Source: Actinomycetota bacterium (GTDB lineage Bacteria > Acidobacteriota > Blastocatellia > Chloracidobacteriales > Chloracidobacteriaceae). From it: 22,746 nucleotides of DNA. The stretch spans positions 1 through 22,746 of the forward strand of contig JAAFHI010000001.1 in assembly GCA_013298335.1 (NCBI GenBank), read 5' to 3'. The notes below the pieces were generated by a model. It was not told where the DNA came from and ran no database searches. It saw nothing but the letters and a program-made list of their open reading frames with translations. Shown here piece after piece: positions 1,000 to 17,275 of the stretch. The position numbers were made by a program, and so were the translations under genes. Position 1 is the stretch's first letter; the number at the start of each line of letters is the position of its first letter.

Positions 1000-3900
1000 T
1001 CACGGAAGACGGGAATCCGAATAGATGGTCGAAATGAATGCCTCCCGCGGGGCGCGGCGATCAAACGGGGTCTCCGCGACCTCGGTCGGGATGGTTTTTG
1101 AGCTTTCGGCGAGCAGATCGGCCAGTTCGCTCGCCGACGGACGCCGTTCCGGCGCTTTTTCAAGGGTACGGGCGATGATCTCCTCGATGGCCGGCGGCAC
1201 CAGCGGGTTCAACTCGCGCAGCGGCGGGGGCGGGTCGTTGAGGTGGGCGAGCATCAGGCCGACCAGTCCGCTCAGGCTTTTTTCGAAGGGCGGACGTCCG
1301 GCGAGCATTTCATACAGCACGACCCCGACGCCGTAGACGTCGGCCCGTCCGTCATAGGGTTTGGCTGAAAATCGTTCGGGCGGCATGTAAATCGGCGTGC
1401 CGATCAGGCAGTCGGTCGCCGTCAGCCGTTCCAGTTCCTCGCCGGGGTCGTCGGTCATCATCTTGGCGATGCCGAAATCCACCACCTTGACGGTTTCACC
1501 CTCCGGCGACTGGTTGAGGAAGATGTTGTCCGGTTTGACGTCGCGGTGGATGATCCCCATCCGGTGCGCCTCGGCCAGCGCGCGGCAGACCGGAACGATC
1601 CGGTCGAGGCAGTGCCGGAGCGTGGTCAGACCGTTGCCGCGCAGTTCGTCGGCGAGCGAAATTCCTTTCAAAAGTTCCATCACCAGATAGGCGATGCCCT
1701 GCGCCGAGATTCCCGAATCCAGCACCGAGATGATGTTCGGGTGCGACAGCCGGGAAATCGAGATGCCCTCGCGCTTGAACCGCTCGATGGCCTCGGCGTT
1801 GTCGTTGCCGGGGCGCGGCTTGAAGACCTTTACCGCGATGGGCCGCCCAAGCGTAAGGTGGGTCGCCCGGAACACGATGCCGAACCCGCCCTCGCCGATT
1901 TTCTCGTCGAGCCGGTACCTGGCATCCAGCACCGTGCCGGGGAGTGCCAGCGCCAGCGCCGAGAAAATCCGGTCGGCCTGCTGGTGCGCGACGAGCAGTT
2001 CGCGGTTTTTGTGGTTGAGTTCGTAAATCTTGCGGTCGAGTTCCTCGTTCTTGCGGACGGTCTCGGCCTGCGCCGCCTCCAGTTTCGTGACGGTTTCGGC
2101 GAGTTCCGAATTCGCCTGCGACAGCGCCTCGGTGCGTTCCCGGACTTTCGCTTCGAGGTCGGCGTACAACCGGGCGTTTTCAAGCGAAACGGCGGCCTGC
2201 GCGGCGATGATGTCGAGGGCTTCCCGGCGGGCGGGCGTGAAGACGTTCGGCATCGCGCGGTGTTCGAGGTAGAGCAGCGCCGTGGTCCGCCCCTGCCGCT
2301 GGACGGGCAGACACCAGATTGCCCGTGGCCGGACCGCCGGAAGGTACGGGTCGGCGGCGAACTGGCGCGATTCCGCCGCGTCGTCGAGCAGGACGGCTTC
2401 ACCCGACCGGATCACGAAATTCGCGATGGTCCGGGGAAGCGCCGCCGTGTCGGCGAGGGATTCGGCGTGGAGCGTGCGGGTGACCCCGGTCAGGACGTCG
2501 CGCTCGGCTTCGACGCGCCAGGCGCCGCGCTGGTCGGGAAGGACGAGTGCCCCGCGCTGCGCTCCGGCGATCTCGACCGCGACCCGGAGCACCGTCGCGA
2601 GCAGGTTTTCGGTCACGATTTCGCCCGACAGGCTCTGGGCGGCCCGCATCACGGCGGCATAGTCGAGCGCCTTCGATGACGAGTCGTCGCCGGTCGCGGA
2701 GTTTGACCGGACGGTCGAAAGCGACCCGGTGCCCCGACCGTCGGAGTTTCCGGTCAGTCCCGCGAAACGCTGGTCGAGGTCCGCGACCTTGGCGACCGCG
2801 CCCCACCGGACGTACCCGTGGCGGGCCTCGCGGGCGTAGGGCAGGGCCAGTTTCGGCTTTTCCAGTTCCATGAAAAACCGCGCGGCGAGTTCGTTGGCGA
2901 GGGCTTCGTCGTGGATGAACCCGTTTTCGCGGGCGACCGCGATGGACCGGTCATAGGCGTCAATCGCCTCGCCGACCCGGTTGTCGCGCCGGAACTGCTC
3001 CGCCTCGACCAGATGGAGAAGCTGGGCGAAGTTCATCGGGGCGTGGGCGGCCCACAGTTCGAGCCGGGTCCGGTTTTCCGCGAGGCGATTCCGGATGGCT
3101 TCGGCGGTTTCCGGGTCGGTGGGCGGTACCGCCAGCCACCGGATGCTTTCGAGCGCGAGAAAGCGCGGGGAGAAGCAGGACGATTGAAAGGTGTGATAGT
3201 TGGCGCGGGCCAGTTCCGCCCCGGCCAGGGCTTCCTCGGGCCGGTCGAACAGCGTGCCCAGATAGAGCCGGAGGACTCCGACCGAGGCGAGCGTCCGGAG
3301 ATCGCCCCTGGTCCGCAACTCGTCTTCCAGCGTGGTGATGTCGGCCCATTGCCCGACCAGTCGGTGGGGCGTCTCGGCCAGTCCGGTCAGGTTCGCCACG
3401 AACTGCCGAAAACACCCGCAGGAAACGACCTGGCGTTCCTGACGCATGGCCGTCATGGCCGATTGATGGACGCGCATTTCCTCCTGGAACTCGCCGAGTG
3501 GCACCCCCAGGGCGACTTTGTACTCAAGGAGGGCCACGAGGGAGAGCGCGGCGAATTCGAATTCACCCGTTTCAAGTCCCCGTTGGTAGCCTTCCAGAAA
3601 CGCGTCCAGCATGTTCCGGAGGGGCTTTTCCCACATGCTGAGCGTCCAGTTGACGACAAAAATGGTCCGTGCCTGCGTGCCCCGCGCATTCGGACGTTGC
3701 GCCAGCCGCAGGGCGAGATTGCCGAATTCGCAGGCGAGGCCGATTTCCCTGAATTGTCCGATGAGCAGAAATCCGAATCCGGCGTAGGTACTGGAAGCGA
3801 GATGATCGTTCCCGTTTTTCAGGAGCAGCCCGAGGTGGGTGAGGTTGATCAGGCCGAGCAGCCCCGGCGCGCCGAAATAGGCCGCGAGGGCGAGCCGGTG

Positions 3901-6561
3901 AAGGAGGCGCGACGTCGCAAGTGCCCGCGGGTCGGTCATTTCCGGGAGATCGGCGAGCGCCGCCACGGGCTTTTCCGCCAGTACGGTCCGGAGCGTGGCG
4001 CGGGTGGCGGTGAAGGCTTCCAGTACCGTTTCCGGCCCCGGCGCGGCGGGCAGCGGGAGCCCCAGTTGCTCAAGGGCGTGCAGGCCGGTGGCGACCGCCT
4101 CCTGGAAACGGTACTGCACGAATTCGTTGCGCAGTTTCGTTTCCCAGACCCGAATGGCGTCCATGACGGTTCGGGCATTGGCGAAAGTAGTTGCCGTCAA
4201 CCGTTCCAGTGTCTCCGCCTCGCCGCAGGAGTAGGCCGCCTCGACGGCTTCGACGTGGAGGCCGAGCGCCAGTTCGTAATGGGTCGTCCAGGGGCGGTCG
4301 GACGCTTTCGCCAGCCGCTCCAGCCCGGTCCGGAAGTAGTTCAGGGCGGGCGCGAAGGCCGCCGCTTGCCGGGCAGTGATTCCGACGGTGAGATTGAACC
4401 GCGCGAGCTGCTCGTTTTCCTCCCGGTCGGCGGTGGCCCCCAGATTGAGGTGATCGAGCGTCTCGAAATCGGGCGTGCCGGAGCGGTCAAGCAGAAGGCG
4501 TCCGATGCGGCGGTGGAGCCCCGGGCGTTCGGCTTCGGGAATCAGCGCGTAAGCCGCCTGCTGGACCCGGTCGTGGACGAAGGAAAACACTGTTTCCCCG
4601 GCCTGACCAACCACGAAATTACCGGTCGCGGCTTCGGCGAGCGCCGACCGGACCACGGCCTCGGGGCGGTCGAGAAGCCGTCCGGTCATGGCCGTATCGA
4701 ACCGCTGCCCGATGGCGGCGGCCACGGTCAGCGTTTCGCGGGTCACGTCAGGCAGGCGGCGCAGGGATTCCGTCAGCAGATCCACGACGTTGTCGGAAGG
4801 ATTCGTCGCCCGAACCGCGTCGAGATCAATGGTCCAGCCTCCGGCGGGCGCGGGCGCGAGGTGCCCGTCGGCGTGGAGTTTTTTCAACAACTCACTGACA
4901 AAGAAGGGGTTGCCGTCGGTTTTGACGTGGAGGATCTCGGCGAAGACCGACTGGTCCTCGCCGAGCACGTCGGCGACGAAGGCCCGCGTCGCACCCCGGT
5001 CGAGCGGCGCGAGCGACAGCGTCGTCACGGGAATTCCCCGCTGCCGGATGCCTTCGACGGCGACCTGAAACTGGTGTCCGGTCGGCGTTTCGTTTTCCCG
5101 ATAGGCGAAGACGAACAGCGTGTGACCGGTGGATTCGTCGGCCAGCAGATCTGAAATGAGGGCCAGCGACCCGGCATCGGCCCACTGGAGGTCGTCGAGG
5201 AACACGACCAGCGGGTGTTCCGGGGCGGCGAAACAGGCGGTGAACCGGCGGAAGACGTGCTGAAGCCGCCGCCCCGCCTCGACCGAATGCAGGTCGGTCA
5301 CCGGCGGCGGCGTGCCGACGATCAGCGCGAGTTCCGGGACGACCGTCGCCGCCACGCCGAGGTTGTCGCCGAGCGCCGCCCCGATTCTGGCGCGCCACTG
5401 GGCGAGTTCGTTCTCGTTTTCGGTCAGCAGGGTTCGGACCAGCCCGCGAAACGCCTGGGAAAGGGCGGAGTAGGGCACATTGCGCTGGAACTGTTCGAAT
5501 TTTCCTGCCGCGAAGAACCCGTGCTGCCGGGTGACGGGCGGGAAAAGTTCCTGCACCAGCGCGGTTTTGCCGATGCCGGAATACCCGGCCACGGTCACGA
5601 TCTCGCGGGCGCCCCGACTGGCGCGCTCGAAGGCGGCGAACAGAGCGTTTTTTTCATTCTCCCGGCCATGCAGGCGGCGCGGGACGCCCACCTGCGCGGT
5701 CGCGTCGTGGCGTCCGATGGAAAACCCGGTTGCGTCGCGCGCACGCAACCGGTGTCGGGCTTCGACCAGATCGGCCCGGATGCCTTCCGCCGACTGATAG
5801 CGTTCATCGGCGTTTTTGGCGAGCAGCCGCGCGAGAATCGCCGCGACCATCGGCGGCACCGCCGGATTCAGTTCGCGCGCGTCAGGGGGCGCGAGGGCGA
5901 GGTGGGCGTACACGAGGTCGAGCGGGTCCTCGACGTCGAAGGGCGGTCGCCCGGTCAGCCATTCGAAGAGCATCGCCCCGAAGGAATAGAAGTCGGTCCG
6001 GCGGTCGATGCGCCGGTTCAGGCGACCCGTCTGTTCGGGTGAAACGTAGCGCAGCGTTCCCTCGATGCCGCCCGGCCCGGCGAAAGAGGGCTGTTCGCGC
6101 GACACCCGCGTCGAGATGCCGAAGTCGATGAAGACCAACCGTCCGTTTTCGCCGAGGATGAGATTCGAGGGATTGACGTCCTTGTGGATGATCTCGGCGC
6201 GGTGAATGTCGGCGAGGCAGTCGAGCGTCCCGATGGCCAGGTCAAGGGCGGCTTCGACGGTCGGAAAACCGGCGGGATACAGCAGATCGACCGACGTGCC
6301 GCCGATATCCTCGATGACCAGGACCGGGCGGAATCCGACCCGGTTGAACTCCAGCACGCGCGCCGCGCCGCGTCCGTCGAGCAGGCGCAGGATTTCGAAT
6401 TCCCGCTGAAACCGCGCGAAAACCGCCGGTTCGGGGCATTCGTCCTCGGTGGTCTTGAGAATGACGGCGCGACCGTCACTTTGGCGGCGCGCCCGGATGA
6501 CGAGCGCGCGCGGATTCCGGCTGAGGACATCGAGCTGGTCGTGGCCGTGGTACTGAAACAT
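1000..6561 (-). CDS. giant Ser/Thr kinase-AAA ATPase-GAF-Ser/Thr kinase protein
   Basis: This 1,853-residue cytoplasmic signalling protein has these modules in order. The N-terminal protein kinase (about 10-275) has VILK lysine 36, HKD at 126-128, and DFG at 146-148. The AAA/STAND-type ATPase (about 296-500) has Walker A GYSGIGKT at 326-333 and Walker B LVVFLDDLQWAD from 451. A long alpha-helical, TPR-like region covers about 500-1290. A GAF domain (about 1317-1465) is followed by a coiled coil (1468-1533). The C-terminal kinase (1549-1820) has GEGGFG at 1556-1561, catalytic Lys 1578, HRD at 1672-1674 and DFG at 1695-1697. The first half matches the cyanobacterial HstK-like plan (kinase-ATPase-GAF), but that family ends in a histidine kinase, here replaced by a second Ser/Thr kinase. 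I chose ATG 6561 because the kinase fold begins right after it; the frame stays open to ATG 6654 (31 more residues, not kinase-like). Neither start has a clear ribosome binding site. Confidence 0.93.
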   Translation of the reverse strand: MFQYHGHDQLDVLSRNPRALVIRARRQSDGRAVILKTTEDECPEPAVFARFQREFEILRLLDGRGAARVLEFNRVGFRPVLVIEDIGGTSVDLLYPAGFPTVEAALDLAIGTLDCLADIHRAEIIHKDVNPSNLILGENGRLVFIDFGISTRVSREQPSFAGPGGIEGTLRYVSPEQTGRLNRRIDRRTDFYSFGAMLFEWLTGRPPFDVEDPLDLVYAHLALAPPDARELNPAVPPMVAAILARLLAKNADERYQSAEGIRADLVEARHRLRARDATGFSIGRHDATAQVGVPRRLHGRENEKNALFAAFERASRGAREIVTVAGYSGIGKTALVQELFPPVTRQHGFFAAGKFEQFQRNVPYSALSQAFRGLVRTLLTENENELAQWRARIGAALGDNLGVAATVVPELALIVGTPPPVTDLHSVEAGRRLQHVFRRFTACFAAPEHPLVVFLDDLQWADAGSLALISDLLADESTGHTLFVFAYRENETPTGHQFQVAVEGIRQRGIPVTTLSLAPLDRGATRAFVADVLGEDQSVFAEILHVKTDGNPFFVSELLKKLHADGHLAPAPAGGWTIDLDAVRATNPSDNVVDLLTESLRRLPDVTRETLTVAAAIGQRFDTAMTGRLLDRPEAVVRSALAEAATGNFVVGQAGETVFSFVHDRVQQAAYALIPEAERPGLHRRIGRLLLDRSGTPDFETLDHLNLGATADREENEQLARFNLTVGITARQAAAFAPALNYFRTGLERLAKASDRPWTTHYELALGLHVEAVEAAYSCGEAETLERLTATTFANARTVMDAIRVWETKLRNEFVQYRFQEAVATGLHALEQLGLPLPAAPGPETVLEAFTATRATLRTVLAEKPVAALADLPEMTDPRALATSRLLHRLALAAYFGAPGLLGLINLTHLGLLLKNGNDHLASSTYAGFGFLLIGQFREIGLACEFGNLALRLAQRPNARGTQARTIFVVNWTLSMWEKPLRNMLDAFLEGYQRGLETGEFEFAALSLVALLEYKVALGVPLGEFQEEMRVHQSAMTAMRQERQVVSCGCFRQFVANLTGLAETPHRLVGQWADITTLEDELRTRGDLRTLASVGVLRLYLGTLFDRPEEALAGAELARANYHTFQSSCFSPRFLALESIRWLAVPPTDPETAEAIRNRLAENRTRLELWAAHAPMNFAQLLHLVEAEQFRRDNRVGEAIDAYDRSIAVARENGFIHDEALANELAARFFMELEKPKLALPYAREARHGYVRWGAVAKVADLDQRFAGLTGNSDGRGTGSLSTVRSNSATGDDSSSKALDYAAVMRAAQSLSGEIVTENLLATVLRVAVEIAGAQRGALVLPDQRGAWRVEAERDVLTGVTRTLHAESLADTAALPRTIANFVIRSGEAVLLDDAAESRQFAADPYLPAVRPRAIWCLPVQRQGRTTALLYLEHRAMPNVFTPARREALDIIAAQAAVSLENARLYADLEAKVRERTEALSQANSELAETVTKLEAAQAETVRKNEELDRKIYELNHKNRELLVAHQQADRIFSALALALPGTVLDARYRLDEKIGEGGFGIVFRATHLTLGRPIAVKVFKPRPGNDNAEAIERFKREGISISRLSHPNIISVLDSGISAQGIAYLVMELLKGISLADELRGNGLTTLRHCLDRIVPVCRALAEAHRMGIIHRDVKPDNIFLNQSPEGETVKVVDFGIAKMMTDDPGEELERLTATDCLIGTPIYMPPERFSAKPYDGRADVYGVGVVLYEMLAGRPPFEKSLSGLVGLMLAHLNDPPPPLRELNPLVPPAIEEIIARTLEKAPERRPSASELADLLAESSKTIPTEVAETPFDRRAPREAFISTIYSDSRLP

Positions 6562-6725
6562 GTCGTGACCGCCAGAGCAGGTGAGCGACGCGGAGGCTTG
6601 AAGATTTTGGGTGCTGGAATCGCTCCGAGCGGAGACTGGAAAACGCCGCCGCATCGGGTCGGATGCGCGGTGAGGCTAGCACGGCGGAAAACTGCCGACC
6701 ATCCCCTGGAGCGTGAACCGGTCCG
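6562..6725. other. spacer between the two kinase genes
   Basis: This 164-bp gap shrinks to 71 bp if the longer start of the downstream kinase (6654) is used. I see no tandem repeat, convincing terminator or promoter. It is the widest gap inside the five-gene block, so an internal promoter is possible but not visible. Confidence 0.4.
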
Positions 6726-8489
6726 TCAGCGGTGTTCGAGTCTGATTCGGTAGGCAAAAGCCCCGGAACCTTCCAGCACCATCCGTTTTCCGGCTTCGTC
6801 CTCCGACGTACCGGCTTTCGGAAGCCCGTTCAGCCGCTCCTGAAGCGACCGGATGACCGCCGGGTCCGACACCGCGCCCTTGTCGGCGTCGTTCGAGAAT
6901 TTTTTCAGCGCCTCGAAATCGGCCAGCGGCTCCGGCGACCAGACCAGCCAGACCACTTCCGTGCCCTGCTGTCTGTCCAGCACGAACCAGTTTTCGGCCC
7001 GGTCGGGCATCTGGACGGTCCGGCCCTCGGCGACCTTCGATTCGCCACCGGCAATCGCGGGAGACGGAAAAAGGTTCACGAACAGGGGCAGGCCGTCCGG
7101 GCGGGGTTCGGCCCCCTGACTCACGAGGTACAAATGGCCGTCCCGCCGGGGCGCGATGTTCAACCTGACCCTCGAACCGTTGCGCAGCACCGCCGAAGTA
7201 AAAACGACGAACGCCTCTCCTTCCGGTTTGTCGTCACGCATGTTCTGGACCGTCAGCCAGAAACCCGCGACGGCGGTTTTCACCGGCGCGACCGGCTTTT
7301 CGACGGTCGGCTTCGGCTTCGATCCGAAAATCGCATCCTTATATATATAGGAGAGCCCGCCGCCCAGCAGGACCACCACCGCCACGCCGCCCGCGACCAT
7401 CGGCGGAAATGAAGACTTCGGTTTCGGGGATTCCGGCGCGGGAAGGGAAACAGGCGGGGCGGCGGGGAATTCGGGCGCGGTCGCGGCCACCGTCGCCGCT
7501 TCGGCGGCCCGGTTTTTGGCCAGCAGCGCCGCCGCCAGTCGGTCGCCGAAGTCCCGCGCCGTCGCCGGACGCCTTCCCGGTTCATAGGCCAGCGCCGCCG
7601 AAATCACCGCCGCCGCCGCTTCCGGCACGTCCGGACGGAGCCGTTCCAGCGGGATGAACTCGCCGTTCATCTGCTTGCGGGCAATCAGGTTGATGGCAAC
7701 CAGCGCGTTGTCGGCCTCAACTTCAAACGGACGCTTTCCCGACAGCATTTCATAGGCGATGACCCCCATCGCGAACACGTCGCTCGCCGCCGTCGCCCGG
7801 CCTTCAATCTGCTCCGACGCCATGTAACTGAGCGTCCCGACCGTCAGCGCCGCCGTGGTTTCCTTCGCGACGTTCGAATCGGCCTGTTTCGCGACCCCGA
7901 AATCAATCAGCTTGGCGTGGCGTTCGCCGCCGTCGAGCGCCTGAAGCATGATGTTGTCCGGTTTGAGGTCGCGATGGATGATCCCCTTCGCATGCGCCGC
8001 CTGCAATCCGCCGCACACCTGCCGGATGATGTCCGCCGTCTGGGCCATATCCATCCCCGACGGGCGCATGACCGTCCGCAAACTCCCGCCTTCGACGAAT
8101 TCCATCACCAGAAACGGGCGTCCGCCGTCGAGCGTGCCGGTTTCGAGGATTTTGACCACGCTCGGATGGTCGATTTTCGCGAGCGCCTCGCCTTCCTGAA
8201 GAAATTTCGTCCAGAGGTAATCATTCCCCTCCGAGCGTTCGAGCAGGAGCTTGACCACGACCGGTCGCCCGAACGCCGCGCGGTCCCGCGCCAGCAGCAC
8301 CACGCCGATGCCGCCCCGCCCAAGCTCGCGGTCGATTTCGTAGCGGTCGCGCAACACATCCCCCGGCCCCAGCGACATCCCCTGAATCGAGGTCCGGTTC
8401 GGCGAATGCGCCCGCGTTCCCGCCGGAGAGGTCATTGCCTGAGTCTGCTGATCGGTAATGGTTTCGGCGTTCGGATCAGTTTGGGACAT
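6726..8489 (-). CDS. transmembrane Ser/Thr kinase with DUF4384-like outer domain
   Basis: The 587-residue product has four parts. The N-terminal tail (1-48) looks disordered. The protein kinase domain (about 50-322) is complete: glycine loop GRGGIG (57-62), VVVK lysine 80, HRD 172-174 in HRDLKPDN, DFG 196-198, and a MASEQ activation-segment end at 223-227. After an Ala/Pro linker comes one membrane helix (about 363-383). The outer domain (about 408-520) resembles DUF4384, including the NGSRVRLNI and GHLYLVSQG strands. The topology implies a cytoplasmic kinase and an extracytoplasmic sensor. AAAGGA sits 10 nt before ATG 8489. The upstream gene encodes a secreted DUF4384 protein, so the two outer domains may work in the same process or bind similar partners. 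That functional link is inference; the kinase call is firm. Confidence 0.93.
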   Translation of the reverse strand: MSQTDPNAETITDQQTQAMTSPAGTRAHSPNRTSIQGMSLGPGDVLRDRYEIDRELGRGGIGVVLLARDRAAFGRPVVVKLLLERSEGNDYLWTKFLQEGEALAKIDHPSVVKILETGTLDGGRPFLVMEFVEGGSLRTVMRPSGMDMAQTADIIRQVCGGLQAAHAKGIIHRDLKPDNIMLQALDGGERHAKLIDFGVAKQADSNVAKETTAALTVGTLSYMASEQIEGRATAASDVFAMGVIAYEMLSGKRPFEVEADNALVAINLIARKQMNGEFIPLERLRPDVPEAAAAVISAALAYEPGRRPATARDFGDRLAAALLAKNRAAEAATVAATAPEFPAAPPVSLPAPESPKPKSSFPPMVAGGVAVVVLLGGGLSYIYKDAIFGSKPKPTVEKPVAPVKTAVAGFWLTVQNMRDDKPEGEAFVVFTSAVLRNGSRVRLNIAPRRDGHLYLVSQGAEPRPDGLPLFVNLFPSPAIAGGESKVAEGRTVQMPDRAENWFVLDRQQGTEVVWLVWSPEPLADFEALKKFSNDADKGAVSDPAVIRSLQERLNGLPKAGTSEDEAGKRMVLEGSGAFAYRIRLEHR

Positions 8490-8510
8490 CGATGAGAAAT
8501 CCTTTTTTTG

Positions 8511-8537
8511 CCACGGATTACACGGATTACACGGATT
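8511..8537. repeat. 9-bp tandem repeat, three units
   Basis: One CCACGGATT unit is followed by two ACACGGATT units, filling half of the 54-bp spacer between the secreted DUF4384 gene and the kinase gene. It ends just before the kinase's ribosome binding site. From general knowledge, related short-period intergenic strings are widespread in several environmental bacterial phyla; their role is unknown to me. Confidence 0.9.
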
Positions 8538-8543
8538 CAGAAC

Positions 8544-9506
8544 TTATTTTTGTGTTTTGGAGCCGATGAAAAGCGGAACGGAAACAAGCAGCGGTGTTCC
8601 CCTGGCGGTGACGGCGCGAAAAATCGACTGCGGAAGCGGGTCGTCCTGCGTGAGCATCCGCGCGCCGCCGGTCGCGGCCAGTTTTTCGGCGCTCTGGTAC
8701 GGCAGGTTCTTGCCGTTGACCAGTTCGAACTGATCGACCCCGGTTTCAAACTTCCTGATTTCGGCGAACCGGGACTCGTCCACTTTCTGGGCGCTCGCTC
8801 CGACCGTCACCCCGTCGAGCGGCTGGTCGGTCACCAGAATGCTCAATTCCTCGCCGACCAGGACTTTCCCCGACTGGTTCGGCAGTTCCCGGATGCTGAA
8901 GTAGTTCGGATTGTCACCGAAGGCCGGGATTTCAACCGGCGTACCGGCGGTGATGCGGTTGTCGCCGCCGTTGGTGCGCGTGGTCGGAAAGATCAGGTAG
9001 GGCTCGCTGAAGGTTCCGTCAGCGTACTTTTCCCGGTCAAACACATACAAAAAACCGGTTTTCGGCGTCATCACGCTCATCCGGACCCGCTCGCCCTCGG
9101 CCAGCGGCGCGCCAGCGGCGATCCGCTCGGGCGTCCACTCGGCGGAAGCGGCGTTCGTCGCGGCATCCTGGACGAGAATCCGGGTGTCTTTCGGGTCGGT
9201 TTTCCGCGCCGGACGCAACCGCCACATCGTGACCGCGATCTCGCGGGCTTCCATTCCCTCCGGAACGGAGAACTTCTCCGCCGGTTTGACCGCCGTCCGC
9301 ACCGGCGCATCGGGTTTTGCCCTTTGAACTCTGGCGTACTGCCGCCGCGCCGGTCGTTTCGCCGCCGGTTTCGCCGCCTTCGGGCGCTGCTGGTTCGATT
9401 GAAAGGCGGTGTCCCAGAGCGCGCGCGCATCTTCCTGAGCCGGCACGGTCAGGCAGAACAGCCCGCCCCAAGCCAAAAGTACAATTCCAATCCCGAATTT
9501 TCTCAT
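8544..9506 (-). CDS. secreted DUF4384 domain protein
   Basis: The 320-residue product starts with a clear signal peptide: MRK, then a hydrophobic core at residues 4-20, with likely cleavage after VPA at 23. A basic Ala/Pro/Arg-rich linker follows (about 40-75). Residues about 135-228 resemble DUF4384: GERVRMSVMTPKTGFLYVFDRE, then LIFPTTRTNGGDNRI and a later LSILVTDQPL strand. DUF4384 is a beta-rich domain often found fused to or beside bacterial caspase-like proteins; here it sits between a caspase gene and a kinase that carries the same kind of domain. There is no enzyme motif, so a binding or sensing role outside the cytoplasm is inferred. ATG 9506 follows an AAAGG with 10-nt spacing, which lies inside the 8-bp tandem repeat. 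Confidence 0.85.
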   Translation of the reverse strand: MRKFGIGIVLLAWGGLFCLTVPAQEDARALWDTAFQSNQQRPKAAKPAAKRPARRQYARVQRAKPDAPVRTAVKPAEKFSVPEGMEAREIAVTMWRLRPARKTDPKDTRILVQDAATNAASAEWTPERIAAGAPLAEGERVRMSVMTPKTGFLYVFDREKYADGTFSEPYLIFPTTRTNGGDNRITAGTPVEIPAFGDNPNYFSIRELPNQSGKVLVGEELSILVTDQPLDGVTVGASAQKVDESRFAEIRKFETGVDQFELVNGKNLPYQSAEKLAATGGARMLTQDDPLPQSIFRAVTARGTPLLVSVPLFIGSKTQK

Positions 9507-9507
9507 C

Positions 9508-9545
9508 GTCTTCGTGCCTTTGCGTCTTTGTGTCTTTGCGTTTTA
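9508..9545. repeat. 8-bp tandem repeat filling an intergenic gap
   Basis: Four 8-bp units run from 9514 to 9545 (GTGCCTTT, GCGTCTTT, GTGTCTTT, GCGTTTTA), after a partial unit at 9508-9513. The array fills the whole gap between the WD40-caspase stop codon (9543-9545, which it overlaps) and the DUF4384 start (9506). On the transcribed strand it is purine-rich and supplies that gene's ribosome binding site. Confidence 0.9.
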
Positions 9546-12500
9546 TTTCTTTTCCGCATTCTGAAGGACCACCACCCGCCGCCGTTTCGCGAAATCAAAA
9601 ACCACCGGAACCTGCTGTTTCGGGAGCTTCCGGCCTTCCTGCGTGAGAATTCTCGCCTTGACCCGGCCGTCGGCGATGGCGGCGGGCAGTTCCGGAACCC
9701 GCTTCACGCCGTATTCGAGCCATTCGCCGAGCGTAATCGTGCCGTCCGGCGGGGCAAAATCGGCTTTTCCCTCGTTCAAACCCTCGGCAATCAGGGCGAA
9801 AGTGAGAAATCCCTGTTTCAGGACGCCCGATTCCATCGCGACGTTGTCGGCCTGGGTCGCCGCGAGAATCCGCATGCCCTTGTCGAAACTCAACTGGCCG
9901 AGTCCGCGGCTGCCCATCGGACCGGGTTTGAACTCCTCGCCGACCGCGCCCGCCGACTGGCAGGTATCGAGAATCATCGTCAGGTCGCCCGCGTCCACGT
10001 CGCGCAGCCACCGGCTCAGGTCGGCGCTTGAAATGCTGTTTTTCAAAATTTCCGCGAGTCCGCCCGTGCTGCCCGTGTCAAACGGCACGATATAAAACTC
10101 GCCGTCCCGTCCGCGATAGCCGTGGCCCGCGAAACAGAGGATGACGACATCTTCCGGCGTGGCCCGCGACAGTCTGGCGGCGTCCGGGATATCCGTCGCC
10201 ATCGCCAGCTGTCCGGAAAGCCGCATAAGCACGGTTTTCAAGTTCTTCCCGGTCGCCGTCGGTTTCTCGCCAATTTCGGAAGTCAGCGAAATCCGGACGA
10301 CTTTCGAAAAGGCCCCGCTTTTTTCGAGCCGGTCACCAAGCGTCCGTTGAAAGGCGAGCGCGTCGGCGACGGCAAACCGGAGCGGCGCTATTTTTGGGTT
10401 TCGCGACCGGTTGACTCCGAAAGTCACGACGTAGGCCGTTCCTTTCCGCGTTTCCAGTTCGGGCTGGGCGACTTTCCGGACGGCTTTCGTCGAGCGGACC
10501 AGATCACCGTTGAAACAATACGCAGAAAATTCGACCGCTTTGTGGTCATCCCGCCGGGGAAGTTGAACCCGAAAGGTTTTTTGAAACCCGGCGGCGGCGG
10601 AATAGGGCTGCTCGCCCGGCGAAAAGCCGACCAGTTGGCCGTCCCGAAACAGTTTCAGATCAAAAGCCCGGCCCGAAGGCGCGTTGTTCAGTCCGGCGGG
10701 CGGGGCAACCGTGACCGTCACGTCCGCAAAACCGGTCGGCTGGCCGTTTTCAACCACCGGGGAAACATCCGTTTCACCAATTGAAACAACGGGTTGCGCG
10801 CGGTTGAGGCGGGCGATGGAGGGAATCGGCGGGAAGTTTTCTCCGGCGAAAATCCGGCGGAGCAGCCCCGGTTCATAGTACTGCCGGAAGAAAAGCTCGA
10901 TGCCGTAGGGCGTCGCGCGTCCGTTTTCTTCGATGACCCAGTGCAGGCCGGTGATATCGCCCGGATCGCTCACGTCGAAGCGGCCCTGCCGGTCGATCAC
11001 TGCCCATTCTTCCCCGTTTTCGAAAGAAACCAGTTGGCACGTTTCCCGTCCGGTGGCCGCCGACCAGAGGCGCGCCGTTCCGTCATGCCCGCCGGTCAGG
11101 ACGAACTTTCCGTCGCCGGAGCGCGAGGCCCCGGTGACGACGCCGAAATGGCCGACGAAAAGCGTTCGCGCCAGACCGGTTGCCACGTCCCACCACGCCG
11201 CCACTCCATCGTTCCCGACGGTCAGCAGATGGGCCGAATCGGGTGACCACTCGGCGGATTCGATGAACAGCGCGTGTCCCACGAGTCGCATGACCTCGTG
11301 TCCACTGTCGGCGCTCCAGATGTGCGCGGTTTTATCGCGGTCGAACGGAAACTGGCTGCCGGTGACGACCGATTTCCCATCCGGCGACCACGCCGAAAAG
11401 GTGACCGGTTGGTTCAAGTCACCGAAATGGGCCGTTTCGGTGGCGGTTCCCGCGTTCCAGATGCGAACCGTCCCGTCACCGCCTTCGGTCAGAAACCGGT
11501 TTCCGACCGGCGACCAGGAAACCCGGACAAATGTATCCGCGGAAACGACGAGCCGCCGGGTTTCCTTGCCGGAATCGGGATTCCACCAACGCACGGTTCC
11601 GTCCCGCCCACCGGTCAGCACCGATTTCCCGTCGGGCGACCACTCGGCGTTTGAAAACGGTTTCTTCCCGGCGGTCAGTTTGACCGTCGGCGCGCCGGTT
11701 TCGGGACGATGAAGAAAAACCGTCGCTTCCTGTCCGACCGTCAAAAGCCGTGTCCCGTCGGGCGACCAGCGGGCGAAAACGGCGGTTTTGGCGTGGCCCT
11801 CGAACTTCCAGAGTTCCTGACCCGAAGCGGCGTCCCACACGCGAGCCGTACGGTCCATTCCGACGGTGGCGATCCGCGTTCCATCGGGCGACCACTGGGC
11901 GTCGAACACCAATCCGGCATGTCCGGTGAGCTGGAGCGGCCCCTTTCCGGTTTCGGGTGACCAGACGGCGACCGGGCTGTCGTCGGTCACCACGAGAAAT
12001 TTTGGCGCGGTCGGCGACCAGGCAACGCGGGTGACCCGACCCGACCGGCCTTCCAGCCAGCGCGGGTTCTTTCCGTTCGCGTCGAAAAGGCCGGTTTTTT
12101 GCGGATCGGAGGCGACGGCGACCCGATCTCCGGCGGGTGACCAGGCGGGAAGGGCGTCGGTTCGCGGTGTGCAGTCGAGCCGGGCGGTTTGCCTTCCGGT
12201 GGCGTCGAGAATGAGAGCGTCGAGGTTTTCCGTAACCAGCAGCGCGATCCGGGTTCCGTCCGGCGAACAGCGGATCGCCCGCGCCGAACAGATGACGGTT
12301 TCCGCGATGACCTTTCCCGTTTCGGTTTCGAAAATCCGAACCGGGCTGCTTTTGCCTCCGGCGACGATTTTTCGACCGTCGGGTGACCAATCGGCGGTCG
12401 TTTTTCCGGGTTCGAAGGAAAACCGCCGGATTTCGTGAGCGGTGGCCGCTTCCCAGACGCGAACCGTGCCGTCGTCGGAGGTGGTCAGGATGGACCGTCC

Positions 12501-13301
12501 GTCGGGCGACCACTCCGCCGACCAGAGGCGTCCCGCATGGCCGGTCAGCCTGATCGGGGCGTGGTCACCCGGCGTCCACACCAGCGCCTCGTTTTGCCAG
12601 GTGACGGCGACAATCCGGTTCCCGTCGGGCGACCAGCGGGCGGTTGAAACCGGACTGGAGGGAATCGTGATCCGGTTCATTTCGCGACCGGTGGCGGCTT
12701 CCCAGACGATTGCGGAACCGTCGTATCCGGCGGAGACGATTCGGCTTCCATCCGGCGACCAGGCGCAGGAATTCACGTAGTTGGTATGACCATCAAGCCG
12801 GACCAGTTCCTTTCCGGTCACGGCGTCCCAGACCCGGACGCTTTTGTCGCCGCTCGCCGTGGCGATGCGCGTTCCGTCGGGCGACCAGACCGCCGCCAGT
12901 ATCCATTTCAAATGGCCAATGAGCCGGGTCGTCAGTTTTCCGGTGGCCGTTTCCCAGACGAGCGCCGTATTGTCGCCGCCCGACGTGACGACGTACGTTC
13001 CGTCGGGCGACCAGGCAACCGACGTGATCGGGGCGACATGGCCGAGTTGAACCATGGCCCGCACGGGATTCCGGGTTCCCCGCGATTCATTTCGGCTGAT
13101 GACCTGGCGGAATTTGTCCTGGTTGTACTGAACCACGGGCTCGGAAACCGGCGACGGCTCACCTGACTCCTGGGTTCGGGAAACGACCACCGGGTCAGGG
13201 GCGCTGGTCCGTGCCGCGCCGGGCCAGCCGCTCCCCGCCGCGAGCATTCCCGCCAGAAGCAGGACGACGGTTTTGAACCGGTTGCGGGCAACGGCTGGCA
13301 T
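9543..13301 (-). CDS. exported WD40-repeat caspase-like protease, 16 blades
   Basis: The 1,252-residue product has a hydrophobic signal sequence (about 8-26; cleavage site uncertain) and then 16 WD40-like blades (about 87-755), most with a W-S-P-D-G turn and a closing V-W strand. Sixteen blades suggest two eight-bladed propellers. A linker domain (755-840) and a beta-sandwich (about 858-945) follow, then a peptidase C14 caspase fold (about 954-1190). The dyad is intact: His 1060 in CFAGHGYRG and Cys 1114 in ILDTCQSAG. Caspase-like enzymes cut after specific residues in target proteins; the propellers probably recruit substrate or sense a signal. The substrate is unknown. ATG 13301 has GGAG with 8-nt spacing. 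The neighbour upstream is a diverged paralogue with the same order of domains. Confidence 0.95.
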   Translation of the reverse strand: MPAVARNRFKTVVLLLAGMLAAGSGWPGAARTSAPDPVVVSRTQESGEPSPVSEPVVQYNQDKFRQVISRNESRGTRNPVRAMVQLGHVAPITSVAWSPDGTYVVTSGGDNTALVWETATGKLTTRLIGHLKWILAAVWSPDGTRIATASGDKSVRVWDAVTGKELVRLDGHTNYVNSCAWSPDGSRIVSAGYDGSAIVWEAATGREMNRITIPSSPVSTARWSPDGNRIVAVTWQNEALVWTPGDHAPIRLTGHAGRLWSAEWSPDGRSILTTSDDGTVRVWEAATAHEIRRFSFEPGKTTADWSPDGRKIVAGGKSSPVRIFETETGKVIAETVICSARAIRCSPDGTRIALLVTENLDALILDATGRQTARLDCTPRTDALPAWSPAGDRVAVASDPQKTGLFDANGKNPRWLEGRSGRVTRVAWSPTAPKFLVVTDDSPVAVWSPETGKGPLQLTGHAGLVFDAQWSPDGTRIATVGMDRTARVWDAASGQELWKFEGHAKTAVFARWSPDGTRLLTVGQEATVFLHRPETGAPTVKLTAGKKPFSNAEWSPDGKSVLTGGRDGTVRWWNPDSGKETRRLVVSADTFVRVSWSPVGNRFLTEGGDGTVRIWNAGTATETAHFGDLNQPVTFSAWSPDGKSVVTGSQFPFDRDKTAHIWSADSGHEVMRLVGHALFIESAEWSPDSAHLLTVGNDGVAAWWDVATGLARTLFVGHFGVVTGASRSGDGKFVLTGGHDGTARLWSAATGRETCQLVSFENGEEWAVIDRQGRFDVSDPGDITGLHWVIEENGRATPYGIELFFRQYYEPGLLRRIFAGENFPPIPSIARLNRAQPVVSIGETDVSPVVENGQPTGFADVTVTVAPPAGLNNAPSGRAFDLKLFRDGQLVGFSPGEQPYSAAAGFQKTFRVQLPRRDDHKAVEFSAYCFNGDLVRSTKAVRKVAQPELETRKGTAYVVTFGVNRSRNPKIAPLRFAVADALAFQRTLGDRLEKSGAFSKVVRISLTSEIGEKPTATGKNLKTVLMRLSGQLAMATDIPDAARLSRATPEDVVILCFAGHGYRGRDGEFYIVPFDTGSTGGLAEILKNSISSADLSRWLRDVDAGDLTMILDTCQSAGAVGEEFKPGPMGSRGLGQLSFDKGMRILAATQADNVAMESGVLKQGFLTFALIAEGLNEGKADFAPPDGTITLGEWLEYGVKRVPELPAAIADGRVKARILTQEGRKLPKQQVPVVFDFAKRRRVVVLQNAEKK

Positions 13302-13407
13302 GGCGGTTTCTCCGGCGGGCGCGAGGGGCGTTCCGCGAAGAGGAGGTTTTCAATCGTGGGTGATGCCGGAATGTTACCTTCATCTCCCCGGTTGGCGAAT
13401 TTCTTTT
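13302..13407. other. spacer between the two WD40-caspase genes
   Basis: This 106-bp gap contains the downstream gene's ribosome binding site (GGAG, 13310-13313). Unlike three other spacers in the minus-strand block, it has no short tandem repeat. No terminator hairpin is obvious, which fits readthrough from one caspase gene into the next. Confidence 0.45.
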
Positions 13408-16400
13408 TCAGAACTTGAACGGTTTCCGGCGGCGGGTGAAATCGAACAGCGCCGGTTGTTGAATTTTCAGGGATTGTGGCGCCGCGCCGGGGGCGTCCTG
13501 GACGAGAATCCGTCCGTCGCCTTTTTTGATTTCGGCGAACAGCCCCGGCACGCGATCCACGCCGTATTTCAACCATTCGTCGAGGTAAATCGCGCCGTCC
13601 CGCGCCCTGAAATCGGCTTTGCCGGCTTCCAGCCCGTCCTGAATCAGCGCAAACGACAGCAACCCCTGTTTCAACTTCTTGTTTTCGAGCGCGACGTTGT
13701 CGGACTGGGTCGCGACGAGCAGCCGGATGCCCTTGTCGTAGGCAAGCTGGCCAAGGCCGCGATTGCCCATCGGTCCCGGTTTGAACCCGCCGCCGACGAT
13801 GGCCGCCGACTGGCAGGCGTCGATGACGGCGATGAACTCGCCCGCGTCGATGTCGCGCATCCGGGCGGCGAGTTCGTCACCCGAAATGCTGGCGGCAAGA
13901 ACTTCGGAGAGTTTCGCCTTTTTGCCGGTATCGAACGGAATCACGCTGAAGACGCCGTTTTCCCCGGCGTAGCCGTGGCCCGCGAACGCCATGATCACCA
14001 CATCGTCGGGCGTCACGGCCCGAATCCGGTCCGCGCCGGGAATCGCCTTCACGCGATCCGCCGGAACGGGCTTCCCGGCCAGTACATCCAATACCGCCAG
14101 AAGGTTGCCCTTGGTGGCGGTCGGCGGGGCATCGGTGTCGGCGACGAGCGATACAGCCACAACCTCGCCGATGCGGTCGTTTTTCGCCAGCCGTTCGCCG
14201 ACCACCCGCTGAAATTCGAGGGTGTCGTTGACGGCGAAGTTCAACGTCCGTACCGCCGGGCTCTGGTAGAGGTTCACGCCAAACGTCACCACATAGGCCC
14301 GGCCCTTCACCCCCGCCGCGCCGGGCGCGAGCGTCTGTTTGAGCGTGGCGGTGCGGGATTTCACCCGGTCGCGGTTGAAACAGTGGGCGGTGAACTCGAC
14401 TTCCCGGTAGTCCGCGTTTTTCGGCAGGCGCACGGTAAAGGTGCGGCGGAATTTTCCGTCCGCGGCGGGCGCGAGCGGGCCGTCGGCGTAGCCCACAAGC
14501 TGACCGTCCCGGAACAGGCGCAAATCCGTTGCGGTTCCGCCCGGTGCGGCGGATGCCGTCACGGTGACGTCGAAAACGCGCGAATCGGCGGCGGTCGGAA
14601 CGGCTTTTTCAATCGCCACACTGGGCTGTTTCCGGTCGAGGTTCGCCACCGGGCGAATCGGGGCAAATTTTTCGCCGTTGAGAATGCGCGTGAACAGGCG
14701 CGGTTCGAAGTAATCCCGCAGGAAAACCTCGACCGGCAGCGGGCTGAACGGGGCTTCCGCCGAAAGCCAGTGAACGCCCCGGATGGTTTCGAGGTTGTTG
14801 GTGTCGAAGCGTCCGTCGGGAGAAATCGCGACCCAGTCGCGGTTGGGGAAGGTCATCAGCTTGCAGCTTTCCTCGCCGGTCGTGAAATTCCACAGCCGAA
14901 GGGTGCCGTCCGCGCCGCCGGTGAGCAGAAATGTGCCGTCCGGGGTGAAATCAAGCGCGGTGACCGCTCCGGCGTGACCGATAAAGCAGCGCGTCGCCTC
15001 GCCGGTCGCCGCGTTCCACTGAATCGCGAGGCCGTCCGTACTCCCCGTGATGACCGATTTCCCGTCGGGCGAAAAAATCGCGGTCCCGACGGAGGTCGCG
15101 TGGCCGATCATCCGGGCGATCCGCTTTCCGGTCGCAAGGTTCCAGACGATGGCGCTGCGGTCCCGACTCGTACTCACCAGCCGGGTCCCGTCGGGCGAAA
15201 AGGCGACGGAAACGGCGATGAAGGAGTGTCCGTCGAACCGGCGCACCACCTTTCCGGTCGCCGCTTCCCACAAAACCACCGCTTTGTCGGTATTTCTGAC
15301 GCCCGCGAGGTACTTCCCGTCGGGGGAAACAGCCAGCCCGTTGATTTCCTGACTGGTGCCGAGGATCTGGCCGATGCTGGCTGCCGCTTCGAGCGCGGAC
15401 TTGAAACTATCCTCAACGGTGGCGGTTTCCGCGTCGTCAAGTCCGCGTCCGAGGTTGGGGCCAAGTTCCTCCGCGACGTAAAACGCGCGCGGTGAGTCCC
15501 CGGTAACATTCCAGACCGCCACTTTTTCCCCGACATTCGACGTAAAAAGGGTGTTCCCGTCGGAAGAAAACACCGCGTCGGTGTAGACGCGCGGTCCGAC
15601 GAAATTCTTGAGCGGGGCGAACGTTTCGGCGTCGAGGATGACCGCGTGTTTGGCGGCGGTGAAGACCACCTTTGAGGCATCGGGCGAAAACCGGACCGAT
15701 TTGACGTCCTCGCTCCCGTCGGGGAGCCAGCCGCTCAGGGATTCGCGACTTTCCGCCGCGCCGAGAATCTCGACCATACCGTCCTCACGTCCGATGACGA
15801 TTTTCCGTCCGTCTTTCGAAAACCGGGCCGCCGTGACCGGCTTGGCGGCGCTTTCCATTCGGGAAAGCAGTTCGCCGGTGGCGACGTTCCACGACAGAAC
15901 CGACCGGTCGTAGCGCGCCCGCACCTTCCGTTCGCCGTCTTCGACGTAGATTTCGGTGCCAAGACCTCCGCCCGAAAGGAGCGTTTTCCCGTCGGCTGAA
16001 AAGGCCAGCGATTTCACATGGCCGGTGTGTCCGGTCAATTTCTTCAACAACCGCCCGGTGTTGGCGTCCCAGAGAAGCACCGTCCGGTCCTCTCCGCCCG
16101 AGGCGGCGAAGCGTCCGTCGGGGGAGATCGCGACCGCCAGAATTTTGGCCGTGTGGCCGAGGAGGGGAATCGCCCGGCGGGTGGCGATGGTGAACAGGGA
16201 GGCGTTTTTCCCGGCGTTGGTGCGGACGATTTTTGTGCCGTCCGGCGTGGTGGCCGTCGGCTGCGGCAGCGGCCTCGCCCCCCGATCTCCGATTTTGACC
16301 AGTTCCTTGCCGGTTTCGACGTCCCATTGGCGGATTTCGCCGAGTCCGGCGCTCGTCAGGGTTTTTTCATCCGGGGAAAGACCGATGGCGGTGGCGGTGG

Positions 16401-17049
16401 CGGTCCCCTTGCCGGTCGTGACGAACCGTTTGAGTTCCGCGCCGGTTTCAACGTCGAAAACGAGGGCGGTGACCTGTTCCGGCGATTCGTACTCGATATT
16501 GGTACAGACAAAAACCCGTTTCCCGTCCCGACTGAACAGAAATTGGTTGATCTGGGGCGGAAACCCCGAAACCGGCAGGCGGCAGGCGATGGTCCGGAGT
16601 TGCGCGCCGGTCACGAGGTCCCACGAAATAATGGTGCTGCCCGCCGCCGTCAGGCAGCGTTTGCCGTCGGGCGTGAAGGCCACCGTCTCGATGCCGTCGA
16701 GCGTGGCCTTGTGTCCGGCGAACCGGCGGAGTTCGCGCCCCGTCGCGGCGTCCCACAGCACGGTGGTCATGTCATTCCCGCCGCTCAGGATCAGCGATCC
16801 GTCGGGCGAGATCGCGACCGCCGAGACGCCCCGGCTGGTGTGTCCCTGCTGGACGACGAGCCGCGTGCCGCTGGTACCCTTCGCCGCGGCCTGCGCGAGC
16901 GCGGCGGCGATAAACTTTCTATTTTTCTCGATAACCGGATTCAGGGGCGTTTTCGGCGCGGTCTGGCCGAGGGCAACCGGCGGCAAAACGACGCTCACGG
17001 ACAGACATAAAAGGCAGAAAAGGAGACGGGAGGTACGTTTTACGGGCAT
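13408..17049 (-). CDS. exported WD40-repeat caspase-like protease, 14 blades
   Basis: The 1,213-residue product has a strong signal peptide: basic MPVKRTSR, a hydrophobic core at 9-24, and likely cleavage after ALG near 28. Fourteen WD40-like blades (about 75-728, mostly F/I-S-P-D-G) suggest two seven-bladed propellers. The linker, beta-sandwich and caspase domain (916 to about 1150) follow the same order as in the neighbouring paralogue. Catalytic His 1025 (AFAGHGYAG) and Cys 1079 (VIDACQSA) are present. The two proteins share long stretches of the caspase domain, such as FKPGPMG-x-RGLGQL, but differ in blade number and sequence, so the duplication is old. I chose ATG 17049, which places the signal peptide at the N-terminus; an in-frame TTG at 17088 would add 13 residues. 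No clear ribosome binding site is seen. This is the likely first gene of the operon. Confidence 0.94.
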   Translation of the reverse strand: MPVKRTSRLLFCLLCLSVSVVLPPVALGQTAPKTPLNPVIEKNRKFIAAALAQAAAKGTSGTRLVVQQGHTSRGVSAVAISPDGSLILSGGNDMTTVLWDAATGRELRRFAGHKATLDGIETVAFTPDGKRCLTAAGSTIISWDLVTGAQLRTIACRLPVSGFPPQINQFLFSRDGKRVFVCTNIEYESPEQVTALVFDVETGAELKRFVTTGKGTATATAIGLSPDEKTLTSAGLGEIRQWDVETGKELVKIGDRGARPLPQPTATTPDGTKIVRTNAGKNASLFTIATRRAIPLLGHTAKILAVAISPDGRFAASGGEDRTVLLWDANTGRLLKKLTGHTGHVKSLAFSADGKTLLSGGGLGTEIYVEDGERKVRARYDRSVLSWNVATGELLSRMESAAKPVTAARFSKDGRKIVIGREDGMVEILGAAESRESLSGWLPDGSEDVKSVRFSPDASKVVFTAAKHAVILDAETFAPLKNFVGPRVYTDAVFSSDGNTLFTSNVGEKVAVWNVTGDSPRAFYVAEELGPNLGRGLDDAETATVEDSFKSALEAAASIGQILGTSQEINGLAVSPDGKYLAGVRNTDKAVVLWEAATGKVVRRFDGHSFIAVSVAFSPDGTRLVSTSRDRSAIVWNLATGKRIARMIGHATSVGTAIFSPDGKSVITGSTDGLAIQWNAATGEATRCFIGHAGAVTALDFTPDGTFLLTGGADGTLRLWNFTTGEESCKLMTFPNRDWVAISPDGRFDTNNLETIRGVHWLSAEAPFSPLPVEVFLRDYFEPRLFTRILNGEKFAPIRPVANLDRKQPSVAIEKAVPTAADSRVFDVTVTASAAPGGTATDLRLFRDGQLVGYADGPLAPAADGKFRRTFTVRLPKNADYREVEFTAHCFNRDRVKSRTATLKQTLAPGAAGVKGRAYVVTFGVNLYQSPAVRTLNFAVNDTLEFQRVVGERLAKNDRIGEVVAVSLVADTDAPPTATKGNLLAVLDVLAGKPVPADRVKAIPGADRIRAVTPDDVVIMAFAGHGYAGENGVFSVIPFDTGKKAKLSEVLAASISGDELAARMRDIDAGEFIAVIDACQSAAIVGGGFKPGPMGNRGLGQLAYDKGIRLLVATQSDNVALENKKLKQGLLSFALIQDGLEAGKADFRARDGAIYLDEWLKYGVDRVPGLFAEIKKGDGRILVQDAPGAAPQSLKIQQPALFDFTRRRKPFKF

Positions 17050-17127: not shown

Positions 17128-17195
17128 AGTAGTCAGTAGTCAGTGGTCAGTGGTCAGTAGTCAGTGGTCAGTGGTCAGTAGTCAGTGGTCAGTGG
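17128..17195. repeat. 7-bp tandem repeat AGTRGTC, about ten units
   Basis: Nine full heptamers run from 17128 to 17190, alternating AGTAGTC and AGTGGTC, plus a partial unit to 17195. It is a microsatellite of the heptanucleotide class known from cyanobacteria and other bacteria. It lies 79-146 bp upstream of the first WD40-caspase start, so changes in length could alter leader or promoter geometry. Confidence 0.95.
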
Positions 17196-17212: not shown

Positions 17213-17275
17213 CGAAATGGATTTGAAGAGGATAGCCCATAGCCGGAGCGCTTTGGCGAGGCTATGGGGAACGAA
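17213..17275. repeat. 63-bp hairpin element, copy 1
   Basis: This is near-identical to copy 2 (17298-17360), with one mismatch (G at 17230, C at 17315). It contains a perfect 9-bp inverted repeat, CCCATAGCC (17236-17244) and GGCTATGGG (17260-17268), around a 15-nt loop. No T-run follows the stem, so it is not a classical intrinsic terminator. It resembles a REP-like or small non-autonomous mobile hairpin. Confidence 0.9.

Follow-up and report, generated by a model that had tools for sequence, protein, structure and literature searches.

What would two caspase-type proteases be doing beside a membrane kinase in an acidobacterial genome, and do such genes belong together? The question is raised by contig JAAFHI010000001.1, where five adjoining genes (g1 to g5) encode two caspases with WD40 repeats, a protein assigned to DUF4384, a Ser/Thr kinase with a DUF4384 domain, and a protein with two further kinase domains. 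The whole stretch, referred to here as the window, is one entire contig of 22,746 bp in an assembly of 1,093 contigs, and the view of the locus ends at the contig ends. We found that g1 to g4 match a gene set recurring in Acidobacteriota, and that the apparently exported DUF4384 protein (g3) and the DUF4384-kinase (g4) look functionally linked. The five genes, in the order in which they are read, are the following (ORF, open reading frame).

13408..17049, minus strand: g1, apparently exported WD40-caspase (Peptidase_C14) of 1213 residues with His1025 and Cys1079, recognized by its ORF, the motifs FAGHG and DACQS, PF00656, WD40 and a hydrophobic N terminus
9543..13301, minus strand: g2, apparently exported WD40-caspase (Peptidase_C14) of 1252 residues with His1060 and Cys1114
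8544..9506, minus strand: g3, apparently exported stand-alone DUF4384 protein of 320 residues, recognized by a sub-cut-off PF14326 match, relatives with PF14326 and a structure model
6726..8489, minus strand: g4, Ser/Thr kinase of 587 residues with one hydrophobic helix near residue 364 and a putative outer DUF4384 domain, Pkinase and DUF4384 both above cut-off
1000..6654, minus strand: g5, kinase-AAA_16-GAF-kinase protein starting at 6654 or 6561, which adjoins g4 and lies outside the conserved module

All five lie on the minus strand at the positions given in a preliminary description of the locus, and its gaps of 106 bp (g1-g2), 36 bp (g2-g3) and 54 bp (g3-g4) agree with the coordinates. 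The fourth gap, reported as 164 bp, holds if g5 starts at the ATG at 6561 and becomes 71 bp with the upstream in-frame ATG at 6654. The domain calls were confirmed in most cases. In particular, Peptidase_C14 (PF00656) scored 26.0 bits in g1 and 29.9 bits in g2 (Pfam cut-off 21.4), WD40 repeats were found in both, g4 contains Pkinase above cut-off, DUF4384 at 32.7 bits (cut-off 27) and, at residue 364, a single hydrophobic segment, and the domain order of g5 is kinase, AAA_16, GAF, kinase. The call that fell below its own cut-off is DUF4384 in g3 (PF14326, 21.6 bits against 27); many of the 120 listed relatives of g3 carry PF14326, and its structure model, with a predicted local distance difference test score (pLDDT) of 83.8, includes a beta-sandwich. 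The His-Cys dyad is present in g1 and g2 (FAGHG with DACQS or DTCQS), both residues are invariant across 29 aligned C14 rows, g1 and g2 among them, and the two proteins show the caspase fold of Peptidase C14 (orthocaspases). By motif and domain, g1 and g2 are predicted caspase-type proteases. No ORF in the set examined carries C14 and DUF4384 labels together.

Recurrence of the gene set in Acidobacteriota

ORFs were called and labeled with custom scripts, with codon scores trained on labeled ORFs and profiles seeded from proteins of the window and its relatives. In the genomes of the window's class (Blastocatellia), the searches for g3-like proteins and CHAT scored the best 13 first-look candidates per genome, and the phylum-wide g3-like search and the search for g5 scored the best 5. 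On this basis, g3-like proteins occur in 56 of the 162 class genomes, the window's own counted (E <= 1e-8). The 90 g3-like places consist of the window, 81 places in 80 fetched regions and 8 weaker ones that were left out. Within the fetched regions, every stand-alone DUF4384 ORF of at least 180 residues was taken as an anchor (n=81), and genes of the same strand were counted as near it up to a distance of 9 kb. The controls were 56 central genes from 20 regions of the same genome set; these regions were chosen by hand, not at random, at round positions of large contigs.

A DUF4384-kinase lies near 48 of the 81 anchors and near none of the 56 control genes, and the same holds for C14 (30/81 versus 0/56). 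CHAT proteases occur near 33/81 anchors and 2/56 control genes, one or the other protease near 61/81, and an M48 peptidase near 7/81. At least one of DUF4384-kinase, C14 and CHAT accompanies 71 of the 81 anchors, compared to 2 of the 56 controls, both through CHAT; where at least 5 kb is visible on both sides of the anchor, 39 of 42 have a partner. CHAT was detected in 150/162 class genomes and C14, less widespread, in 88/162; G001 and G003 each gave 66 first-look CHAT candidates. Since CHAT is common in the class, C14 and the DUF4384-kinase, both at zero in the controls, provide the sharpest test of chance.

In a phylum sample of 396 genomes, g3-like proteins were found in 19 (E <= 1e-10), 18 of this class, the window's genome counted, and one of another class. 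Furthermore, a single peptide pattern retrieved 40 named loci, each of them named for an Acidobacteriota group, Bryobacterales and Terriglobia among them. Linkage is also hinted at by near relatives of the window's proteins, with g3 (83% identity) and the g4 tail (69%) apparently matched in one genome and g2 (71%) and the g4 tail (66%) apparently in another. The expectation that the five-gene neighborhood is conserved beyond the strain thus holds for the g1-g4 set, which recurs in many genomes, and is not supported for g5, of which no same-strand counterpart was found within 9 kb of any of the 81 anchors.

Gene order varies among the loci. The order of the window (caspase, caspase, DUF4384, kinase, g5) is repeated for its first four genes in two loci, L105 and L122, where the caspases have no WD40 and an M48 peptidase stands in front. 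The order WD40-caspase, kinase, DUF4384 was found at 7 loci, and these three genes form one same-strand run at 10 loci besides the window. In L104, L105, L109, L122 and L138, from genomes of two families, the non-WD40 caspase form comes with an M48 peptidase gene.

About half of the protease-bearing loci have CHAT in place of the caspase. This form, often ordered ECF-kinase-CHAT-DUF4384 (ECF, extracytoplasmic function sigma factor), was found in this class and also at named loci beyond the fetched set, namely L192 (Bryobacterales), L193 (Sulfopaludibacter) and L178, L180 and L189 (Acidobacteria). The genome of the window itself harbors a second module, on contig C770, with an ECF gene directly before the DUF4384-kinase, followed by a DUF4384 protein and a CHAT protein with tetratricopeptide repeats (TPRs). 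A short contig of the same genome (L213, G000:C730) encodes two strong C14 domains, of 146.9 and 110.1 bits, in divergent orientation. Pfam and NCBIfam bore out the labels of representatives (Sigma70_ECF with TIGR02999, CHAT, C14, FGE-sulfatase and M48). The DUF4384 tree and the pair sets used below were built from ORFs of at least 240 residues (n=75 with the window); on this quick tree, in which 21 of 72 inner branches are weak, the C14-or-CHAT label changes at least 8 times over 56 rows, which indicates that the protease slot is exchangeable.

Active-site motifs were scored by pattern, and signal-like N termini by a simple hydrophobicity rule. The motifs are retained in 39/39 C14 and 39/40 CHAT proteins and, as HRD, in 50/51 kinases, while a narrower C14 pattern missed 6/37. 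Signal-like N termini were assigned to 62/72 DUF4384, 31/37 C14 and 31/38 CHAT proteins, and an internal helix to 47/50 kinases. In the window, g1 to g3 have hydrophobic N termini by this rule, g2 showing no signal in a 19-residue scan. Judged from these features, g1 to g3 would be exported, and the tail of g4 would lie outside the membrane.

Co-divergence of the apparently exported DUF4384 protein and the kinase

The preliminary description had placed an exported DUF4384 protein and a kinase with a DUF4384-like outer domain in one pathway, and a link between these two parts is supported by their joint divergence. Across 46 kinase-DUF4384 pairs, the distances between the exported proteins correlate with those between the outer parts of the kinases at r 0.82, compared to r 0.49 for the kinase domains. 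The partial correlation of the exported protein with the outer domain is 0.75, and the maximum reached by permutation is 0.33. When the comparison is restricted to pairs whose kinase domains are distant, the outer part gives an r of 0.72 and the kinase domain one of 0.13. The association is also specific for the pair within a genome, as re-pairing within 10 multi-module genomes gave a mean r of 0.42 and a maximum of 0.80, and 0 of 2000 shuffles reached the observed value.

The tail of the kinase from the same locus is not the nearest in sequence to the exported protein, its median rank being 21 of 46; it follows that sequence exchange between the two genes does not explain the co-divergence.

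A candidate mechanism and its alternatives

On balance, we consider it somewhat probable that g1 to g4 are one copy of a mix-and-match envelope signaling module of Acidobacteriota, in which g3 and g4 are a matched pair and the caspases set the kinase on or off. According to this reading, g1, g2 and g3 would be exported and g4 would span the inner membrane, with the kinase inside and DUF4384 outside. The two DUF4384 parts would form the matched pair, g3 being most likely a ligand or co-receptor of g4, unless both bind the same thing. The caspases, in the same compartment, would most likely act on g3, on the outer domain of g4 or on what these sense; their action would switch the g4 kinase on or off, and the kinase would then alter gene expression. 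From the patterns described above we infer contact between the proteins, the direction of the signal and phosphorylation of a sigma factor, as well as a role in the response to envelope damage or attack. A protease upstream, as input, is favored over one downstream, as output, because it is with the receptor part that the exported protein co-diverges tightly. A more specific version, in which exported C14 or CHAT proteases process a secreted DUF4384 ligand that acts on the membrane kinase through its matching outer DUF4384 and so on transcription, in some cases via a phosphorylated ECF, is tentative, and we regard it as rather unlikely in this full form.

In relatives with a neighboring ECF gene, the target of the kinase would probably be that sigma factor, which bears a threonine at a site where other ECFs are acidic. 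Group 43 of the ECFs, regulated by kinases, is described as having no acidic DAED motif and gaining the charge by phosphorylation (PMC8999054; PMC8103513, in the portions available to us), and EcfP and EcfK have been studied as kinase-activated members for which, in the available part of the report, either T51 or T106 suffices (PMC13147305). The ECFs of module loci, some on the opposite strand, read Q-x-T-A or similar, and two ECFs from control regions are acidic there. The threonine is retained in 22 of 23 ECF rows from module loci, which represent 19 distinct contigs, four rows repeating contigs already counted, and TIGR02999 is above cut-off in both ECFs scanned. By analogy, this threonine may occupy the position of the STTA threonine of EcfP.

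Several observations weigh against the signaling module. No ECF gene was labeled in the window, where the step through a sigma factor may accordingly not apply; among the relatives, enrichment of same-strand ECF genes is weak (10/81 anchors versus 2/56 control genes). Of the 10 partnerless anchors, 7 are within 2 kb of a region end and 3 are not, and gaps within modules are hardly shorter than those of background pairs (median 53.5 versus 69). The kinase domain, too, tracks g3 within genomes, more weakly (1 of 2000 shuffles was as high), so that linked inheritance explains part of the co-divergence, and the correlation between the caspase domain and g3 is weak (r 0.32, 31 pairs). To these points are added the DUF4384 score of g3 below cut-off and the behavior of the signal peptide rule, which is positive for 134 of 296 other ORFs as well and so constitutes weak evidence.

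The best-surviving alternative reverses the order of events: the kinase, with an ECF where present, would sense the envelope and switch on the exported caspases or CHAT proteases as end products against envelope proteins, competitors or predators, g3 serving as a chaperone, inhibitor or tether of the protease. The repeated replacement of caspase by CHAT on the g3 tree, as is often seen in effector slots, and the retained catalytic motifs are consistent with such an output, as is the PknS-EcfK pathway, which drives a type VI secretion system used as a weapon against amoebae according to the part of PMC13147305 that was available. The co-divergence of g3 with the outer domain of the kinase, much tighter than with the caspase domain, is to be expected of a receptor pair more than of a chaperone for the protease, and we hold the output reading to be possible, at well below an even chance.

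A cassette for programmed death or phage defense, in which infection or damage would activate the caspases and kill the cell, would agree with the recurrence of bacterial caspase domains in conflict systems (PMC8195603, as far as the available text goes) and with a weak similarity of g1 and g2 to NF047832 (31.1 and 47.3 bits), which does not reach the cut-off of 140. In a PADLOC scan, with models that have no curated cut-off, g4 and g5 matched kinase models (PD-T4-6, mad6 and others) over their kinase domains, g1 and g2 matched one repeat model, and g3 had no match at E <= 1e-5. Since the defense-model matches are confined to kinase domains and repeats and the parts look exported, with the co-diverging part apparently outside the membrane, a death or defense role is less likely, and we judge it improbable. 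The stress, death or defense function offered in the preliminary description is speculative.

More improbable still is a five-gene pathway with g5 as the internal integrator, as the preliminary description had it. Although g5 follows g4 on the same strand, and a related kinase-AAA/TPR gene adjoins a DUF4384 gene in L080 on the opposite strand, no same-strand g5-like gene lies within 9 kb of any of the 81 anchors. The middle part of g5 gave 29 rows in 23 of the 162 genomes. None of the 28 rows other than g5 is near a g3-like place; one shares a contig with a DUF4384 place (G011:C21), about 105 kb away, many of the contigs being short, and the second g5-like protein of the window's genome is on a separate contig, C545. 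With no same-strand neighbor at the anchors and its relatives elsewhere, g5 was left out as a module member; it is probably not part of the g1-g4 set, and the conserved set has one kinase. Finally, that the genes are neighbors of independent function sharing a strand by chance, as the abundance of CHAT in the class and the ordinary gaps might suggest, is hardly credible given the excess of partners at the anchors over the controls and the pair-specific co-divergence.

Upstream of g1, two further features were recorded.

17396..19615, minus strand: g0, protein with a winged-helix domain (Trans_reg_C) and a PD40 propeller, separated from g1 by a 346-bp gap and not counted as a module member
17132..17194, no strand: 7-bp tandem repeat array upstream of g1, of a family dispersed in the genome

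The array, in the g0-g1 gap, is of the CACTGAC type; its pattern CACTGACYACTGACYACTGAC matched the genome at 108 places and the reversed control at 0, which identifies a dispersed repeat family. The same gap contains two copies, at 17231 and 17316, of a 39-bp repeat that itself includes an inverted repeat (CCCCATAGCC...GGCTATGGG). Short repeat-like sequences are also seen in the g2-g3 gap (9518; ACGCAAAGACACAAAG...) and in the g3-g4 gap (8510; GTAATCCGTGTAATCCGTGGC). On the plus strand, a large divergent ORF of 879 residues (20109-22745), open at the contig end, contains repeats of the GGGSFCSGG type and is perhaps a surface protein.

Known systems and the meaning of the module

The closest parallels are the Ser/Thr kinase-activated ECF systems of group ECF43, PknS-EcfK of Xanthomonas citri and PknT-EcfP of Vibrio parahaemolyticus, with which the module shares a membrane kinase with an outer domain and, in some relatives, an adjoining ECF with a threonine that may replace the acidic sigma2.2 motif (PMC8999054, PMC13147305, both from partial texts). 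Different from these systems, the outer domain is DUF4384, compared to TPRs in PknS as far as its description was accessible, and the module additionally encodes a DUF4384 partner and caspases or CHAT proteases, all apparently exported, with no ECF labeled in the window. Sigma-70-metacaspase operons of Myxococcus and other bacteria (Asplund-Samuelsson et al. 2012) likewise combine a caspase gene with a sigma factor in a predicted operon; the account, in the sections seen, mentions neither a DUF4384 kinase nor an alternation with CHAT, and the groups for which it reports several caspases per operon are Alphaproteobacteria, Bacteroidetes, Cyanobacteria and Deltaproteobacteria (PMC3501461).

Cyanobacterial orthocaspases fused to WD40 or DUF4384 use the same domains, but DUF4384 is there within the caspase polypeptide, whereas the module has it on the kinase and, in addition, as a protein of its own. 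In the partial sources at hand, DUF4384 is an accessory domain of cyanobacterial caspases and co-occurs with kinase domains. The contexts of ECF54 also place CHAT proteins beside an ECF group; proteolytic control is proposed there, and the available extract names no kinase and no DUF4384 (PMC8999054). The EACC1/EACC2 and TRADD-N conflict systems share the caspase domain, some having an ECF or kinase nearby (PMC8195603, in the part consulted), but the scores of g1 and g2 fall far short of the EACC1-caspase cut-off (NF047832), and both proteins look exported. The kinds of part, the kinase-ECF pairs and the sigma factor-caspase operons are thus already known (PMC3501461, from the portion seen), and for the combination of an interchangeable caspase or CHAT with a co-diverging DUF4384 pair no earlier description was found in the literature searched.

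The module offers bacterial caspases a recurrent set of partners, namely a kinase resembling a receptor and a protein, apparently exported, whose domain matches the outer part of that kinase. It also provides a concrete hypothesis for DUF4384, a domain rarely named in the literature searched, and assigns caspases and CHAT proteases to a single position in which they replace each other, seemingly at the envelope and not within a death complex of the cytoplasm. If true, the ligand-processing version would amount to a bacterial equivalent of a cascade that leads from an extracellular protease to a receptor. More generally, these observations hint that caspases of bacteria may provide input to signaling at the envelope or act in its service.

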